Below, piece by piece: positions 51,509 to 58,599 of a DNA stretch of 64,000 nt. The notes beneath the pieces were generated by a model that saw only the letters and a program-made list of their open reading frames with translations, did no database searches and was not told the DNA's origin. A program made the position numbers and the translations under genes. The first letter of the stretch is position 1. Each line of letters starts with the position of its first letter. Source of the DNA: Radicibacter daui (GTDB lineage: Bacteria > Pseudomonadota > Alphaproteobacteria > Radicibacterales > Radicibacteraceae); the NCBI GenBank assembly GCA_030657355.1, contig CP131056.1, positions 2,686,501-2,750,500 of the forward strand, read 5' to 3'.

Positions 51509-51949
51509 ATGGGCAAGCAGAATTTTCTCCGCGAAAAGGTACAGGTTCAGTACACGGTGAAGCTAAAGCTCACCGACAATGACCGTTCCCTGCAGGACTT
51601 CGAGCCGGACGCCGGCAAACTCATCAAGGTCATTGAAAAAGAAGACTGGAGCGTCGACGCGAAGCTGAAAAAGAAGCGCGACAGTTACGAAATCGACCGC
51701 ATCATGAGCATCGGGTACCCGCAGGTCCGCAACGGCCATGTCGGCGAAAGCGGCCATGATTGGCAGTGGCAACTCGATACAGAAAGTATGGGAAGCGGAT
51801 CGCGCGACCGGCTTTATCTCGACGACGTCAGCGCCAGCGTCACTCGAGAAAGGGAAAACGGCACGATCAAGGTTGGCCGGGACGACTTCATGGTTATTGA
51901 CTGCGAAGTAACCATAAAAGGCAAATTCACCGCCGGTACAAAACACTGA
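51509..51949 (+). CDS. Hypothetical protein, unrecognised
   Basis: A 146-residue cytoplasmic protein with a clear GGGAGG ribosome site and a consensus-like -10 upstream. It is highly charged, lysine- and aspartate-rich, with VQYTVKLKLTDNDRSLQDF at the N-terminus and alternating beta-type segments such as FMVIDCEVTIKGKFTAG at the C-terminus. No membrane segment, signal or known motif is seen. It is followed by its own 9-base-pair hairpin, which separates it from the orphan antitoxin gene. It marks the left end of the accessory region. I cannot assign a function. Confidence 0.7.
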   Translation: MGKQNFLREKVQVQYTVKLKLTDNDRSLQDFEPDAGKLIKVIEKEDWSVDAKLKKKRDSYEIDRIMSIGYPQVRNGHVGESGHDWQWQLDTESMGSGSRDRLYLDDVSASVTRERENGTIKVGRDDFMVIDCEVTIKGKFTAGTKH

Positions 51950-52368: not shown

Positions 52369-52386
52369 TTCCTGTCACCGTAATTC
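52357..52386. repeat. 15-base tandem repeat over the higA stop codon
   Basis: CTGTCACCGTAATTC occurs twice in direct contact (52357-52371 and 52372-52386), without mismatches. The higA TAA stop lies in the first unit and is copied in the second, where it is again in frame. Confidence 0.9.
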
Positions 52387-52389
52387 CCT

Positions 52390-52412
52390 CCTCTCGACCC
52401 GCCATGGTTGTT
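52390..52412 (+). repeat. Leader repeat A, copy 1 (before paralogue 1)
   Basis: This 23-base segment begins CCTCTC and ends CATGGTTGTT. It matches 53248-53270 at 20 of 23 positions. It lies 48 bases before the ATG of paralogue 1; its partner lies 33 bases before the start of paralogue 2. Confidence 0.75.
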
Positions 52413-52460: not shown

Positions 52461-53195
52461 ATGAAGAAACGGCATATCAAGGTGCTGCGTCGTGTCTGGC
52501 TCTTTGTCGCTGGCGGGTTCTTTGGGATCGTGCTCCTTCTCCTCGCGGTCATTGTTTGGGGCGCTCTGGCTCGTAGCGATGCTTCGCTCGTCGCAATAGC
52601 CCGTTGGGTCAGTGAAATACCCGGCAGCACGTGGGCCGGTTGGGCACAAGCATTTGGCACCCTTGCCGCTATTGCCTTCACGGCGACCCTTGGCCAACGG
52701 CAACTGCGCGTTGCCAGACGTCATCATGAAATCTAAATGGAGAGACAGAGGCGCAATGACGAGCAGCAAGCTCGTCGGCAAGCGGCGGACTTGCTTCCCA
52801 TTGTCCGCAAGGCGGGGTCGGAGATGGAACGATTTGACGCGATGTTTTGGGAAGTGTTGCCAGACGACTACATTACCCGTGGCATCACGTTTCCTAGAAT
52901 GGCCAAAGAGCTTGACGATTTCGATATCGGTGATGGGTTGGAGGCTAGACTTCCGCAACCACTTTCGGAACAGTTGTACTAAGTCAGATGGCAGATCCTG
53001 CTTGCAAAGGTAAGCATGATAGAAGCGAGCGACACAATCGCCCGCCGATCCAACGATGCAGCAATCAACGCAATGTACAGGCTCGCAAGAAAACGCCTTA
53101 CGGACGCCTGGGTTGCAACTGATACGGCTGTACAGGCCATCTCGTTGTTCGTCATGAAGGGCCCGGACCGGCCGAGCCCCACCCAGAGGAAATGA
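52461..53195 (+). pseudogene. WxxW-TM paralogue 1, interrupted by two in-frame TAA codons
   Basis: From the ATG at 52461 the frame stays open to a TGA at 53193-53195, apart from TAA at 52734-52736 and TAA at 52980-52982. Read through, it would give about 242 residues, the size of the intact paralogues downstream. The first part shows a membrane segment (VWLFVAGGFFGIVLLLLAVIVW, residues 12-33) and the family motif WAGWAQAFGTLAAIAFTAT near 59, then a basic linker. The second part starts at an ATG right after the first stop (ERQRRNDEQQARRQAADLL) and looks like the charged helix of the family. It is probably a decayed copy; two separate coupled small genes are the alternative. Confidence 0.6.
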
Positions 53196-53247
53196 GCGAG
53201 GCATTTTTGCTGACGGCAACACGTTGGCTAAGCGCGCATAACCCCTT

Positions 53248-53270
53248 CCTCTCAGCCCGTCATGGTTGTT
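53248..53270 (+). repeat. Leader repeat A, copy 2 (before paralogue 2)
   Basis: It matches 52390-52412 at 20 of 23 positions, including the shared CATGGTTGTT end. Both copies lie a short distance before members of the same membrane-protein family, so it may carry a shared control signal or be a relic of gene duplication. Confidence 0.75.
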
Positions 53271-53303
53271 AACTAGCCGCAGAAACAGCGGTTGGGGGCG
53301 AAT

Positions 53304-54119
53304 TTGAGCAGTTTGGAACCGGCGAAGCGACAACCTGCTTCGGCTGAAGTCCTCCCGCAGGAAACCAGATACACAGCCTGGGCTTTTGCCGCCGGCGGTT
53401 GCTTTGGCGCGACCTGCCTGATGCTCGTGTGGATCGCAGCCAACGGCTCCGGGATCGATGGCAAGATCGATTGGGCGAAGTGGCTGCAGACGACCGCTGG
53501 TCTCTGTAGCGGCTTCGGTGCCCTTGTGGCGGTACTGATTAGCCTCTGGACTTATTCGAAGCAGCACAGGGCTCAACTCGCGGCTGAAGCGCGGCAGCAC
53601 CTGATTGCAGCCCGCCAGATTGCCGAAGACAAGATTGACCGCCTGTTCCGGGCGCACGCTTATCTGAACGCTGCGGCCGCAGCGACTAAAAGGGCTGGGC
53701 AGATACTTCCCGAAGAGGACGAAGAGCAGGCTGCGTACCGCCTTATGACAGTTGATTTCGCCCAAATCGCAGAGGCTCTGGAGGCGTACCCTGAGCCTTT
53801 GACGTCGGGAGAAATAATTCAGCTCAGTGTCCCGGCCGAGGTTACCAAGGGTCTGCTCGAAATTGCCAACATCTGTCGCTACGCCCAGCGCCGACACGCA
53901 GAGTTGAGTACAATCCAGCATACGGGCGCCCCCAACGACGGGCATCGCCTTTTTGAGTGGTTTTCGCGGGTAAACGTGCTCATCGCTGCAGTTAAGCGCG
54001 ACCTGAACCGGCTCGAGCGGCTCATACAGGTCACCCAGGACTTCACAGAAAAGGAAATGAGGGCAATCGCCGTAGAACACGACGCGATGGACCGCGTCGG
54101 CTCGCAAAAGGGGGTATGA
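53304..54119 (+). CDS. WxxW-TM paralogue 2, membrane protein of unknown function
   Basis: A 271-residue protein. No ATG or GTG suits the start; the TTG at 53304, about six bases after GGGGG, is the best choice. TM1 is at about residues 26-46 (WAFAAGGCFGATCLMLVWIAA), the family motif DWAKWLQTTAGL near 57, and TM2 at about 65-82. The cytoplasmic rest is helical: a basic linker (YSKQHRAQLAAEARQHL), a middle with DFAQIAEALEAYPEPLTSGEIIQLSVPAEV and a C-terminal helix ending VTQDFTEKEMRAIAVEHDA. No enzyme motif is visible. The next paralogue starts one base after its stop. Confidence 0.75.
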   Translation: MSSLEPAKRQPASAEVLPQETRYTAWAFAAGGCFGATCLMLVWIAANGSGIDGKIDWAKWLQTTAGLCSGFGALVAVLISLWTYSKQHRAQLAAEARQHLIAARQIAEDKIDRLFRAHAYLNAAAAATKRAGQILPEEDEEQAAYRLMTVDFAQIAEALEAYPEPLTSGEIIQLSVPAEVTKGLLEIANICRYAQRRHAELSTIQHTGAPNDGHRLFEWFSRVNVLIAAVKRDLNRLERLIQVTQDFTEKEMRAIAVEHDAMDRVGSQKGV

Positions 54120-54800
54120 TTGAACGAAGTCAGCACTAAAGCCGCAGTCCTAGCCATGCTCGCCTTTGCGCTTGGCGTCGGCGCCACCGTCCTCTGCATC
54201 ATCGGCGCCAGCGTGATCGACGCCATTTTCTCCCTGAGCAAGAGCGACTGGGCAGCCTGGGTGCAGGCGGTTGGCAGCATTGGGGCCATCATCGGCGCCA
54301 TATGGATTTCCCGGCACGAAATTAGGGTTCAACGACGGCAGCGCGACATTGAACACAACGACAGAATGCGGCGAGTAGCACTCAACGTCTGGAGAACTTT
54401 GTTTTCCAAGTACAGCGAAGTTGAGGAGATTAAATCGGGCCGGGAGGAAGTTCGTTTCTTGATAAACCAAGTGAACAGCTCTCGTGCGGCGGGGCAGGTT
54501 CCCAGCTTTCAAACACATCAGCAAATAACACGCCTTACCCGCGAACTTCGGGAGAAGTCGAAAAGTATTCGTATGACGGTTGAGATCATTGACGAATTGA
54601 TGGCCGCACGTACGGCAGCTTATGAAGACGCCCTCAAAATAATTCAAACGATCAACATCCTTGGCCGCTTCGGCCATGACGTCAACAATCAGGGATTTGA
54701 AAAGAAATATCCGGCGTTTATAGCGCTCTACAACACTGTAGAGAGCCGATTGGAAGCCTTCCGACAAGGCGACAACTACCCAAAAGATCCAGCCATTTAG
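54120..54800 (+). CDS. WxxW-TM paralogue 3, membrane protein of unknown function
   Basis: A 226-residue protein starting at a TTG directly after the paralogue 2 stop, with an AAGGGGG ribosome site five bases upstream, so the two are coupled. TM1 is at about residues 8-36, the motif DWAAWVQAVGSIGAI near 43 runs into TM2 (to about 62), and a basic stretch RHEIRVQRRQRDIEHNDRMRR follows. The C-terminal half is helical, with REKSKSIRMTVEIIDELMAARTAAYEDALKIIQ. Orientation should be N-in, C-in by the positive-inside rule. A 9-base direct repeat (CCATTTAGC at 54793 and 54808) spans its stop. Function unknown. Confidence 0.78.
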   Translation: MNEVSTKAAVLAMLAFALGVGATVLCIIGASVIDAIFSLSKSDWAAWVQAVGSIGAIIGAIWISRHEIRVQRRQRDIEHNDRMRRVALNVWRTLFSKYSEVEEIKSGREEVRFLINQVNSSRAAGQVPSFQTHQQITRLTRELREKSKSIRMTVEIIDELMAARTAAYEDALKIIQTINILGRFGHDVNNQGFEKKYPAFIALYNTVESRLEAFRQGDNYPKDPAI

Positions 54801-54892
54801 CAGAACACCATTTAGCGCAGTCATCCTCTCGCTCTCCCCGCTGAAGCGCGATAGCCTGTCGCCCTCATGCCCTTTGTGGTGGAGAGCGCCCC

Positions 54893-55564
54893 ATGTGCGG
54901 CCGATACGTCCAGACCCTGCCCGCCGAAGCGATGCGGCGCCTGTTCAAGGCCGGCGGCGCGCTGCCCAACCTCAGCCCCAACTACAACGCGGCGCCCACG
55001 CAGCGCCTGCCGGTGTGCCGCTTTAACCCGGAGACGGGCGAACGCTCGCTGGATGTGCTGCGCTGGGGCCTTGTGCCCAGCTGGGCGAAGGATCTCTCCA
55101 TCGGCGCCCGCACCATCAACGCCCGGGCGGAGGGCGTGGCGGAGAAGCCCAGCTTCCGCAGCGCCTTCAAGGCGCGCCGCTGCCTGGTGCCGGCCGATTA
55201 TTTCTATGAGTGGAAGAAGGAGGGCAGCGCCAAGCAGCCCTTCCGCATCGGCCGGGCCGATGGTCCGCCGCTGGTGTTCGCCGGCCTGTGGGAAGGCTGG
55301 CAGGACAAACAGAGCCAGGAATGGGTGCGCACCTTCACCATCATCACCACCACGCCCAGCGCGCAGATGGCTGCCCTGCATGACCGCATGCCGGTGATCC
55401 TTGAGGAGGAACACTGGCCGGCCTGGCTGGGCGAGGAGAAGGCCGAGCCCGCCAGCCTCCTGCCCCTGCTCGCACCCTGGCCCGGCGAGCTGGAGCTGGT
55501 GGCCGTGAGCAAGGATGTCGGCAACGTCGCCAACAACCGCCCGGATTTGATTGATGCGGTTTGA
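54893..55564 (+). CDS. SOS response-associated peptidase (SRAP, YedK/HMCES family)
   Basis: A 223-residue protein that covalently caps abasic sites in single-stranded DNA. All key residues are visible: catalytic C2 directly after the initiator Met (MCGRY), the Asn in PNYNAAPTQ near 31, the Glu in PADYFYEWKK near 104 and the His in LHDRMP near 163. RWGLVPSWAKD and TINARAEGVAEKPSFR are also typical. Self-removal of Met exposes the cysteine that crosslinks to DNA. It is embedded in the paralogue array, and its end is overlapped only by the ribosome-site region of paralogue 4. It may be ancestral core sequence or island cargo. Confidence 0.93.
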   Translation: MCGRYVQTLPAEAMRRLFKAGGALPNLSPNYNAAPTQRLPVCRFNPETGERSLDVLRWGLVPSWAKDLSIGARTINARAEGVAEKPSFRSAFKARRCLVPADYFYEWKKEGSAKQPFRIGRADGPPLVFAGLWEGWQDKQSQEWVRTFTIITTTPSAQMAALHDRMPVILEEEHWPAWLGEEKAEPASLLPLLAPWPGELELVAVSKDVGNVANNRPDLIDAV

Positions 55565-55580
55565 GGGGGGGAATGCGCGA

Positions 55581-56273
55581 GTGACGGAGAAAGAGGACGT
55601 CGGCTACCACCTGTCGCGCATCGTTGCCCTCTTGCGGGAGCGCGGTCTCCGGCAGATCGCCCGCACCGAGCCCAGGCTCGTCAAGACCGTTGCCCTTTGC
55701 GGCGGCTCCTTCATGGCCGGTATCTTTGTCGTGTCGATCTTCAGCGACCTGAGCGCGGGTGACTGGGCGGCCTGGGTACAGGCGATTGGCAGCATCGCCG
55801 CTCTGTTCATCGCGATAGGGATTGCTCAGTGGCAAGTCGCTGAGACCCGCCGCGACGCAGAAGCCAGAATAGCCGAAGAGAGAGAGCGAGCCCTCCAGTT
55901 GCAGCGAGCGACAGCCGCCAGCGTTGCTGGTGAGATAACGCGCCACCGGGGCGAGCTCGAAAAGTCCTTGAGGAAGGCGGGGCAGAAAATCAATGACAGC
56001 AACACTTGGCACAGGCTGAAGGACGAGTTGCAAAAACTGCAGCTCCCCAAAAACCTCGAAATCAGATTGCCTACTGATTTGCTCGCTGCTTGCCGTGCGA
56101 TCAGGCTGCTCGAAATTGAGTTCTCGGAGCAAATAGAGGAGTGGCCGGTCAACCCAAACCCATCCCCCGCCCATCTCGAACTCAGGGACAAAATGATCAA
56201 CACCGGGCGTGGCATCTCGGCGGCTTTGAATACTCTGGAGCAAGCCTTGAGGGCATTCGCCCAAGCCAACTAG
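55581..56273 (+). CDS. WxxW-TM paralogue 4, membrane protein of unknown function
   Basis: A 230-residue protein. The GTG at 55581 is preferred because a G-rich ribosome site lies about nine bases upstream and the resulting start VTEKED resembles VTENAN and MTENAT of paralogues 5 and 6; an ATG at 55554 overlapping the SRAP gene is the alternative. TM1 is at about residues 37-55, the motif DWAAWVQAIGSIAAL near 61 runs into TM2, and a charged coiled-coil stretch (ETRRDAEARIAEERERALQLQRA) follows. The C-terminal domain (LPTDLLAACRAIRLLEIEFSEQIEEW) is helical. No catalytic motif is visible. Confidence 0.78.
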   Translation: MTEKEDVGYHLSRIVALLRERGLRQIARTEPRLVKTVALCGGSFMAGIFVVSIFSDLSAGDWAAWVQAIGSIAALFIAIGIAQWQVAETRRDAEARIAEERERALQLQRATAASVAGEITRHRGELEKSLRKAGQKINDSNTWHRLKDELQKLQLPKNLEIRLPTDLLAACRAIRLLEIEFSEQIEEWPVNPNPSPAHLELRDKMINTGRGISAALNTLEQALRAFAQAN

Positions 56274-56352
56274 CGACGCGCAGCAGCCGCGACCCGGATA
56301 CTGGAGCCGGCATACAATGCGTTGAAGTGTGCTCTGGCGCGGAAATACCTCC

Positions 56353-56393
56353 GGTGGATATAAGATCTGCAGCAAACAATGCAGACGAGTGCC
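56353..56393 (+). repeat. Leader repeat B, copy 1 (before paralogue 5)
   Basis: This 41-base segment matches 57301-57341 at 40 positions. It contains a -10-like TATAAG and a hairpin (TCTGCA at 56366-56371 with TGCAGA at 56380-56385, loop of eight). It ends five bases before the GTG of paralogue 5. Weaker similarity extends leftward to 56332. Confidence 0.85.
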
Positions 56394-56397
56394 CCCT

Positions 56398-57153
56398 GTG
56401 ACCGAGAACGCTAATGCCAGCGCCGCCGCGAAACTCAATCCGGGCGAAAAGGTAGAAAAACCGGCGGCCTACGCTCTCTGGTGCCTCGCCGTTGGCATAG
56501 CCTTCGGCTTCCTAGGCGCCGCCTACCTCAGCCATGAACTGATTGTTCCCACCCGCGAACTTCTTGAAGCAGTCCGGGAACTTCTGGCCGGTGACAAAGG
56601 GCCCGATTTCGGAAGTTGGGCAGACTGGAGCGCCGCCGTCGGCACCATCGGCGCTATTCTGTTCGGCGTACTCCAGTCTCGACGACAGATAAAAGAGACC
56701 AGAGATCTTCATCAATCGGAAATGCAGCACCAGCGCGACTTGCGCCTTTGGGAACTGCAGAAGGCTTCGACCGCCACGCTCGGACCATTGCTGAGTTTCA
56801 ACGCGGCTCTCGGGAACGCCATGCATGCAGCCGTGAACTACGACGGAAACCCGCAGTTCAATATGAAATTCCTGGAAGAAATTCTCCAAGAAACAGAAAA
56901 TAGTAAACTCGATATCGCACATGTAGCAGCAATGCCACCGGAATTTAAGACACGATTTATTTCCATTAGCGATGATTTTGAAGAACTTAAACATGAAATA
57001 TGGGCGATTCAATCTATCGATTACAATGAAGCATATGTCAGAGGATGCGAAAACTCCCTTACGAGACTTTTTGTAAGAACAGAAGATTTGTACGAAGATT
57101 TGCAACGGTTCATTGAACGCGACGAGATTCCCCAACCGGCAACAGCCCACTAA
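56398..57153 (+). CDS. WxxW-TM paralogue 5, membrane protein of unknown function
   Basis: A 251-residue protein starting at the GTG at 56398, fixed by alignment with the ATG of paralogue 6 after the same leader. TM1 is at about residues 22-42 (ALWCLAVGIAFGFLGAAYLSH), the motif SWADWSAAVGTIGAILFGV near 74 forms TM2, and a basic linker (QSRRQIKETRDLHQSEMQHQ) leads to a helical C-terminal domain with PPEFKTRFISI and a final YEDLQRFIERDE. The last third of the gene (about 56880-57110) is markedly AT-rich compared with the first part. It is clearly homologous along its whole length to paralogue 6. Function unknown. Confidence 0.8.
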   Translation: MTENANASAAAKLNPGEKVEKPAAYALWCLAVGIAFGFLGAAYLSHELIVPTRELLEAVRELLAGDKGPDFGSWADWSAAVGTIGAILFGVLQSRRQIKETRDLHQSEMQHQRDLRLWELQKASTATLGPLLSFNAALGNAMHAAVNYDGNPQFNMKFLEEILQETENSKLDIAHVAAMPPEFKTRFISISDDFEELKHEIWAIQSIDYNEAYVRGCENSLTRLFVRTEDLYEDLQRFIERDEIPQPATAH

Positions 57154-57218
57154 GCTTCTGGGCCATGCAGAACACCTGAACTCGCCCCCGTTTGGCAGTC
57201 CTGAAGCTCATCCCGCCA

Positions 57219-57275
57219 CATAACCCACCCCCGGATAAGCGATCAGCGGCAACCACGCCTCGACCAGACATTGAC
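57219..57275 (-). pseudogene. Remnant: duplicated 3' end of the adjacent minus-strand gene
   Basis: The minus strand reads EAWLPLIAYPGVGYVAG followed by a stop, against EAGLPLIAYPGVGYEAS and a stop at the end of the gene at 58165-58599. At the DNA level 57219-57267 matches 58176-58224 at about 44 of 49 positions. Only this short end is present, between paralogues 5 and 6. It is best explained as part of the tandem duplication that made paralogue 6. Confidence 0.75.
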
Positions 57276-57300
57276 GTTCCCTCTGGCGCAGCACACCTGC

Positions 57301-57341
57301 GGTGGATATAAGATCTGCAACAAACAATGCAGACGAGTGCC
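57301..57341 (+). repeat. Leader repeat B, copy 2 (before paralogue 6)
   Basis: It matches 56353-56393 at 40 of 41 positions; the one difference lies in the hairpin loop, so the TCTGCA/TGCAGA stem (57314-57319 and 57328-57333) is preserved. It ends four bases before the ATG of paralogue 6. Confidence 0.85.
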
Positions 57342-57344
57342 GCA

Positions 57345-58115
57345 ATGACCGAAAACGCGACCGCCGCCGATCAATCGCATCCCAACGCGATAGGCATCAC
57401 GGGTGAAAACTACGGCACCTGGTGCCTCGTGGTTGGTATCGCTTTTGGGTTCCTCGGCGCGTCCTTCTTCGGGCACGAATTGTATCGTGCGATTTGCACT
57501 GCCCTCGAACGGGGAGGGAGCCTCGAGATTGGCTCCTTGGCGGACTGGAGCGCAGCCATCGGCACAATTGGCGCAATTCTGTTCGGCGTGATCCAGTTTC
57601 AACGGCAGGTAAAAGAGACCAGACGTTTGCACAATGAACAAATGGAGACGACGAGGCGGCTCCATCAGGCCGAAATGAAAGCACAGTACGACGTGCGCCT
57701 TTATGAGTTGCAAAAAGACGCCGCTGAGATTCTTCCCGCCATCGACACTCTCGTTAATAATCTTATGAGATATTGGAGCCTGTCGATAACAAATATAAAA
57801 AAAGAAGAAGACTGGTCCGACGAAGATTTTTTGGAATTCGAGAAAGATTTTAAAAATATAATTCCGGAGATTCATTATATAATAAAATTTCCACCAGATT
57901 ATAAAAGTCGTTTTGCTGGAATCAGACGCGATATTAAGAAGGCAATTCAAGATGCAAAAACTTGGCAAAGAGATGGTCAATCCGAAAAAGAGGCTCAAAA
58001 CTGGTTGGCCCAGCTCGAGAAGTCTTTCTGGGCTGTCGATACGCTTCAGAGGGATTTGAACGATTTCATGGAGTTGGGCGAGCAACCCCCGGCGCGCACA
58101 CTCCGAGCCAGTTAG
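57345..58115 (+). CDS. WxxW-TM paralogue 6, membrane protein of unknown function
   Basis: A 256-residue protein from the ATG at 57345; an in-frame ATG at 57327 lies inside the conserved leader and is less likely. TM1 is at about residues 25-45 (WCLVVGIAFGFLGASFFGH), the motif SLADWSAAIGTIGAILFGV near 66 forms TM2, and a heptad-like linker (QVKETRRLHNEQMETTRRLHQAEMKAQ, shown in part) follows. The C-terminal domain has PPDYKSRFAGI, matching PPEFKTRFISI of paralogue 5, and ends LQRDLNDFMELGEQ. Bases about 57760-57960 are very AT-rich for this genome. Function unknown. Confidence 0.8.
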   Translation: MTENATAADQSHPNAIGITGENYGTWCLVVGIAFGFLGASFFGHELYRAICTALERGGSLEIGSLADWSAAIGTIGAILFGVIQFQRQVKETRRLHNEQMETTRRLHQAEMKAQYDVRLYELQKDAAEILPAIDTLVNNLMRYWSLSITNIKKEEDWSDEDFLEFEKDFKNIIPEIHYIIKFPPDYKSRFAGIRRDIKKAIQDAKTWQRDGQSEKEAQNWLAQLEKSFWAVDTLQRDLNDFMELGEQPPARTLRAS

Positions 58116-58164: not shown

Positions 58165-58599
58165 TCAGCTCGCTTCATAACCCACCCCCGGATAAGCAAT
58201 CAGCGGCAGCCCCGCTTCGGCCAGGCGCCGGTTAGCGGCCTCCACCACGGCGCGCGGGCTTGAGGGCCTGCCATCCAGCCGCCACTCGCCGGTGCTGCGC
58301 TTGCAACTCACCCGGCCGCCCAGCGCTGCCATGGCGCGCTCCAGCGGGTTTCCGCGATTGCTGGCCGGCAGCGGCACTAGCCCGGCGGCCACACCCAGTT
58401 GCCGGCGGGCGATCCGGCGCTCCTCGGCTTTCGCTGTCGCCAGAATGCGCCGCACCTCCGCCCGGCTGATGCCGGTAAGCCGCGCGATCATCACCGCGCT
58501 ATGGGCAAGGGCGAACTACAACACCAGCCGGCGCAGAGCGAGCGTTACGGCCTCGTTCGTCTCCAGCAGCTGGGCCGGCTTGCGGGAGATGTGGCTCAT
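58165..58599 (-). pseudogene. Conserved hypothetical gene with an in-frame TAG at codon 28
   Basis: From the ATG at 58599 the minus strand reads MSHISRKPAQLLETNEAVTL, then a TAG at 58516-58518, and continues in the same frame for another 116 codons to a TGA at 58165-58167. A shorter product could start at GTG or ATG near 58494 (MIARLTGISRAEVRRILATA), which looks like a helix-turn-helix segment. The C-terminal part has STGEWRLDGRPSSPRAVVEA and LPLIAYPGVGYEAS. I do not recognise the family. The interruption suggests a broken gene, or a misassigned longer start. The 3' end is duplicated at 57219-57275. Confidence 0.55.

Follow-up and report, generated by a model that had tools for sequence, protein, structure and literature searches.

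A chromosomal array of two-TM membrane proteins in Radicibacter daui, related to a prophage accessory family and a candidate for superinfection exclusion

Introduction

The chromosome of Radicibacter daui carries six genes of one kind in close succession, each for a small protein with two predicted membrane segments. Where did these genes come from, and what could several diverged copies of the same membrane protein do for the cell? A sequence-only reading of the DNA found that no known system fits and pointed to a conflict-related or signalling role such as phage defence, arguing from the repeated copies and from the antitoxin-like, SRAP and tRNA genes beside them. We have followed up this proposal by analysis of the window, that is, the whole 64-kb stretch at 2.69-2.75 Mb of the 5.06-Mb genome, and of relatives in bacterial genomes and viral sequences.

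Results

The array and its setting

The array occupies most of a stretch of ~7.5 kb, mostly of lower GC, between a gamma-glutamyltransferase gene and tRNA-Met/mnmA. This stretch contains an orphan 146-aa ORF, a HigA-type antitoxin gene, six co-oriented two-TM genes, an SRAP gene and a broken minus-strand gene, here called gene X. The six-copy array with a broken first copy, as described earlier, is confirmed: five of the paralogues are intact (226-271 aa) and one has decayed. The features are as follows.

52461-53205, plus strand: copy 1, decayed two-TM paralogue; a single frame interrupted by two in-frame TAA stops, without a frameshift; profile match across the whole stretch, E 6e-33
53304-54119, plus strand: copy 2, intact two-TM gene, 271 aa, the most divergent; ORF, recovered by the phage-relative profile
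54120-54800, plus strand: copy 3, intact two-TM gene, 226 aa, beginning directly after the stop of copy 2; phrog_33632 E 2.9e-6
54893-55564, plus strand: SRAP gene between copies 3 and 4; PF02586 E 1.2e-76; host-like GC of 0.67-0.72
55581-56273, plus strand: copy 4, intact two-TM gene, 230 aa, nearest to the phage family and starting 17 bases past the SRAP stop; phrog_33632 E 5e-10; AlphaFold model
56347-56393, plus strand: 47-bp element upstream of copy 5, 96% identical to 57295-57341
56398-57153, plus strand: copy 5, intact two-TM gene, 251 aa; ORF, recovered by the phage-relative profile
57208-57267, minus strand: duplicate of the gene X tail, a remnant of tandem duplication, 85% identical to 58165-58224
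57295-57341, plus strand: 47-bp element upstream of copy 6, the repeat of 56347-56393
57345-58115, plus strand: copy 6, intact two-TM gene, 256 aa; AlphaFold model
58165-58599, minus strand: gene X, interrupted by a single in-frame stop and lying tail-to-tail with copy 6

A profile of the six copies finds only these six places in the 5.06-Mb genome, the next match being at E=0.04. Gene X shows a weak likeness to phrog_15781 and, apart from its duplicated tail, is single in the genome.

The neighbouring genes were examined as possible partners, and as clues to a conflict function they proved weak. HigA matches TIGR02607, and a HigBA pair was rejected because no HigB toxin is recognisable beside it. 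The orphan ORF (51509-51949) adjoins the antitoxin gene and has no family match. SRAP was rejected as a partner, being present in just 2 of 78 related loci. An integrated element at tRNA-Met was likewise rejected: the tRNA end is not repeated anywhere in the window, as it would be if it marked such an element, and there is no integrase within ~94 kb of the array. The neighbouring HigA, SRAP and tRNA genes thus explain little, and SRAP and HigA may be passive neighbours. The array shows no sign of a current phage; because no phage genes or integrase were found near it, its descent from a prophage is something we can only infer.

Architecture of the proteins

As the sequence-only reading had it, prediction places two membrane segments at the N terminus of each of the five intact copies. 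The 20 residues following the second segment hold 3-6 Lys/Arg (about 4), against about 2 in the loop, and this charge distribution suggests that both termini are cytoplasmic. The motif W-x-x-W-x-x-[AT]-x-G-[ST]-[IL], earlier ascribed to all copies, is present in copies 1, 3, 4 and 5; the corresponding residues are WAKWLQTTAGL in copy 2 and LADWSAAIGTI in copy 6. Across the family the hairpin is conserved and the cytoplasmic part variable, the conservation of the motif being partly biased by the motif-based search. The second hairpin helix of copy 4 bears a conserved Q67 and the small-residue series G70-x3-A74-x3-A78.

Two copies were modelled with AlphaFold, copy 4 with 82 aligned family members from the window and elsewhere (pLDDT 84, pTM 0.59) and copy 6 with 68 members (pLDDT 80, pTM 0.52). 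The models agree in showing TM1, a very long helix made of TM2 and a stalk (residues 59-135 in copy 4 and 62-149 in copy 6; 80-90 residues), and three further main helices. The predicted C-terminal parts of the two copies follow one common helix order, although the shared alignment may favour similar models; these two models give no sign of unrelated C-terminal parts, which would have spoken against the earlier idea of a diversified system. Structural searches of the PDB and of viral models yielded nothing more specific than generic helical bundles, and no match reached an E value below 0.001.

Duplication and divergence within the array

Copies 5 and 6 are products of a tandem duplication of ~950 bp, which besides the two-TM gene took in the tail of gene X, its neighbour on the minus strand. 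The expected pattern of a conserved N-terminal and a diverging C-terminal half is borne out by this pair: the N halves are 55% identical (dN 0.36, dS 1.65) and the C halves 25% identical (dN 0.93, dS saturated). Replacement of the C half was considered and rejected. At identical residues, third positions differ in 28 of 57 cases in the N half and 15 of 34 in the C half, and since this divergence is alike in both halves, it suggests faster protein change of the cytoplasmic part and not exchange. The 47-bp elements upstream of copies 5 and 6, with TCTGCA/TGCAGA arms, are 96% identical despite coding parts near synonymous saturation, and occur nowhere else in the genome; their identity points to gene conversion or to a site under constraint. 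Copies 1 and 2 are in turn preceded by a 32-bp repeat with 81% identity (52381-52412 and 53239-53270), and these copies too may derive from tandem duplication.

The state of the genes bears on the reading that the array is a decaying leftover of a mobile element with no present function. Copy 1 and gene X have decayed, and the locus forms a low-GC island amid core-type genes, as this reading would have it. Against it, five copies remain intact despite large divergence, and dN/dS between copies 5 and 6 is near 0.22 in the N half, albeit at high dS. We regard a functionless remnant as quite improbable.

Relatives belong largely to an unnamed phage protein family

The family matches PHROG 33632, whose profile is hit by 57 of the 82 family members, copies 3 and 4 among them, with a best E of 3e-35. 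PHROG annotates this group as of unknown function, and no literature naming it was found. Copies 2, 5 and 6 have no direct match to phrog_33632 and are linked to it only through the wider family profile. A profile made solely from phage relatives recovers each of the five intact copies, with E values from 2e-27 to 4e-6, and the likeness between array and phage proteins therefore exceeds chance. A C-half profile gave no signal with the C halves of the window copies; sequence comparison lends no support to C-terminal kinship of copies 2, 5 and 6 with phage proteins.

No relatives of the family were found in Pfam, NCBIfam or the PDB. The PADLOC defence profiles do not match the five copies, and within the family they give borderline matches (E 4e-4 or weaker) to at most 4 of the 82 members.

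Among 385 genomes of the class, a profile built from the window copies found just four weak matches beyond the source genome; since the comparison genomes share only the class, the lineage is isolated within this set. The wide profile matched 17 of 399 genomes of the phylum, with six copies in the source genome and one or two in the others. Pattern scans yielded 14 genome loci, mostly in Burkholderiales, and 64 and 62 partly overlapping loci in IMG/VR. Searches of annotated phage and plasmid records by tblastn found no relative, and a viral scan queried with copies 5 and 6 found no match. Four long relatives (L052, L079, L092 and L109) appeared to have extra N-terminal domains; these carry no Pfam domain and are most likely over-extended reading frames. 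On a Burkholderia contig (L052:3843-5508), an integrase is followed by a two-TM gene and a same-strand SRAP-like gene, an arrangement that resembles the window.

Phage context of the relatives

The relatives are located in DNA of temperate phages. Across the 105 distinct loci searched, 130 of 131 early lytic genes are encoded on the other strand from the family gene (65 loci, 37 sequence groups). The markers used were C5 and other DNA methyltransferases, RdgC, exonuclease, antirepressor, a PAPS-reductase-like gene and two unknown PHROGs. Two or three family copies occur in 26 of the 105 loci, and co-orientation holds for 137 of 137 family copies. In 49 of 57 loci the nearest tyrosine integrase is encoded upstream on the other strand, and S24-type repressor genes are located downstream in either orientation. 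No enrichment of sigma-70 promoters over shuffles was detected upstream of the family genes.

As viral contigs are phage by definition, proximity to integrases was tested on genomes drawn regardless of phages. A tyrosine recombinase lies within 10 kb in 11 of 17 genomic matches, where 0.78 would be expected (P about 9e-12). The count omitted a second copy beside one already counted, and is conservative because the locus of the omitted copy also carries an integrase-like gene. The relatives are thus not scattered single copies in stable core contexts, a finding that would have spoken against a diversified system.

This placement also weighs on the reading of the family as part of the lysis module, for example as a holin or spanin. 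Some weak matches point to holin families, yet only one member weakly matches such a family and 57 of the 82 match phrog_33632. The genes sit in the integrase/early region, opposite in strand to the lytic genes, and the proteins, of 190-270 aa, have a large helical cytoplasmic part. A lysis function is very improbable.

Relatives often begin only a few bases from a divergent DNA methyltransferase gene (e.g. L062, L063, L060, L108, L215 and L223), the starts sometimes overlapping. In 21 of 43 methyltransferase-holding loci (10 sequence groups), the starts of the two divergent genes are no more than 120 bases apart, and the genome loci L215 and L223 also have this arrangement. It would be expected if the family were a regulator or partner of a phage DNA methyltransferase, for instance in a modification-dependent barrier. 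Such a partnership nevertheless seems unlikely to us, considering that 62 of the 105 loci have no recognised methyltransferase nearby and that none is seen beside the window array.

Discussion

We conclude, with high confidence, that the six genes belong to the prophage accessory ('moron') family PHROG 33632 and form an amplified set of it on the chromosome. The window array is best explained as prophage-type genes that the chromosome has retained and multiplied in the absence of a phage. The earlier proposal of a conflict or phage role stands in part. It gains from relatives in the integrase/early region of prophages, encoded opposite to the lytic genes as in the layout of lambda sieB, and loses the arguments from HigA, SRAP and tRNA; what remains is context-based.

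What the family does is a separate question. By analogy, its members most likely work like SieB of lambda and P22, as inner-membrane proteins that the host or lysogen makes and that exclude superinfecting phages, a proposal to which we give about an even chance. Because the genes are opposite in strand to the early lytic operon, they would be expressed in the resident state, outside the lytic programme. With both ends in the cytoplasm, the conserved membrane hairpin would pack into oligomers and form the effector part. The fast-changing helical cytoplasmic part, coupled to the hairpin by one long helix, would respond to a component of the incoming phage, and the outcome would be a membrane-level block or an abortive arrest of that phage. 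Several diverged copies could cover several phages. In this SieB-like scheme, the likely role as a resident-state inner-membrane protein whose hairpin acts in the membrane is argued from the placement of the genes, and the likely sensing by the variable part from patterns of conservation, themselves partly biased by the motif-based search. A membrane-anchored effector or sensor role, as proposed earlier, is what we infer.

The same placement would be expected of prophage accessory genes without a defence function, that is, of membrane proteins that alter the physiology of the lysogen (stress, envelope, fitness), with six copies kept for such a reason; accessory loci are known to have many functions (PMC7067206). 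The rapid divergence of the cytoplasmic half and the recurrent multi-copy state look more like an arms race than housekeeping, and we consider this alternative rather unlikely, if the most serious of those weighed here.

The analysis makes an unnamed phage protein family a concrete superinfection-exclusion candidate that can be checked by plating, and the array is a case in which such genes have been amplified and retained by a chromosome that has no phage there. The strand rule, by which such genes run opposite to the lytic ones, may reveal other unannotated protective genes of prophages. More speculatively, temperate phages could possess, in this family, a membrane exclusion system of a new class. 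Its two-TM proteins, often present in several copies, would combine a hairpin of small residues with a cytoplasmic sensor that varies, and would be encoded antisense to the lytic genes and often beside a divergent DNA methyltransferase; at least one bacterium would also have gathered them into a stand-alone chromosomal array as a barrier to several phages. We hold this wider claim only tentatively.

Comparison with known exclusion systems

SieB is the closest known counterpart in layout. Lambda sieB is on the plus strand amid minus-strand int, exo, bet, gam and N, and ends one base before the end of N, so that it is tail-to-tail with an early gene. Placement opposite to the early operon is shared by the phage relatives (130/131) and does not apply inside the window array. 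SieB (PF14163), of about 185 aa, also has two membrane segments followed by a cytoplasmic tail, the layout that hydropathy and the models predict for the family. No kinship in sequence was detected: no family member matches the PF14163 profile, whereas lambda SieB matches at 1e-29, and hhalign of SieB against the family gives a probability of 1%. Matches to known defence families were likewise too weak to trust. SieB differs further in being single-copy and in a cytoplasmic part that looks different. SieB halts macromolecular synthesis midway in superinfection (PMC10883804), and in P22 it is under antisense RNA control (PMC12197685).

P22 SieA resembles the family as a prophage-expressed inner-membrane exclusion protein with highly diverse sequence types, and differs in its three predicted membrane segments and its size of about 160 aa (PMC10883804). 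The exclusion protein of Pseudomonas phage Fc02 is just 7.9 kDa and is likened to the family by placement, its gene reportedly sharing the strand of the repressor and running against the lytic operon (PMC9936078). Such antisense placement to the lytic genes of a prophage has been described as typical of accessory loci (PMC7067206).
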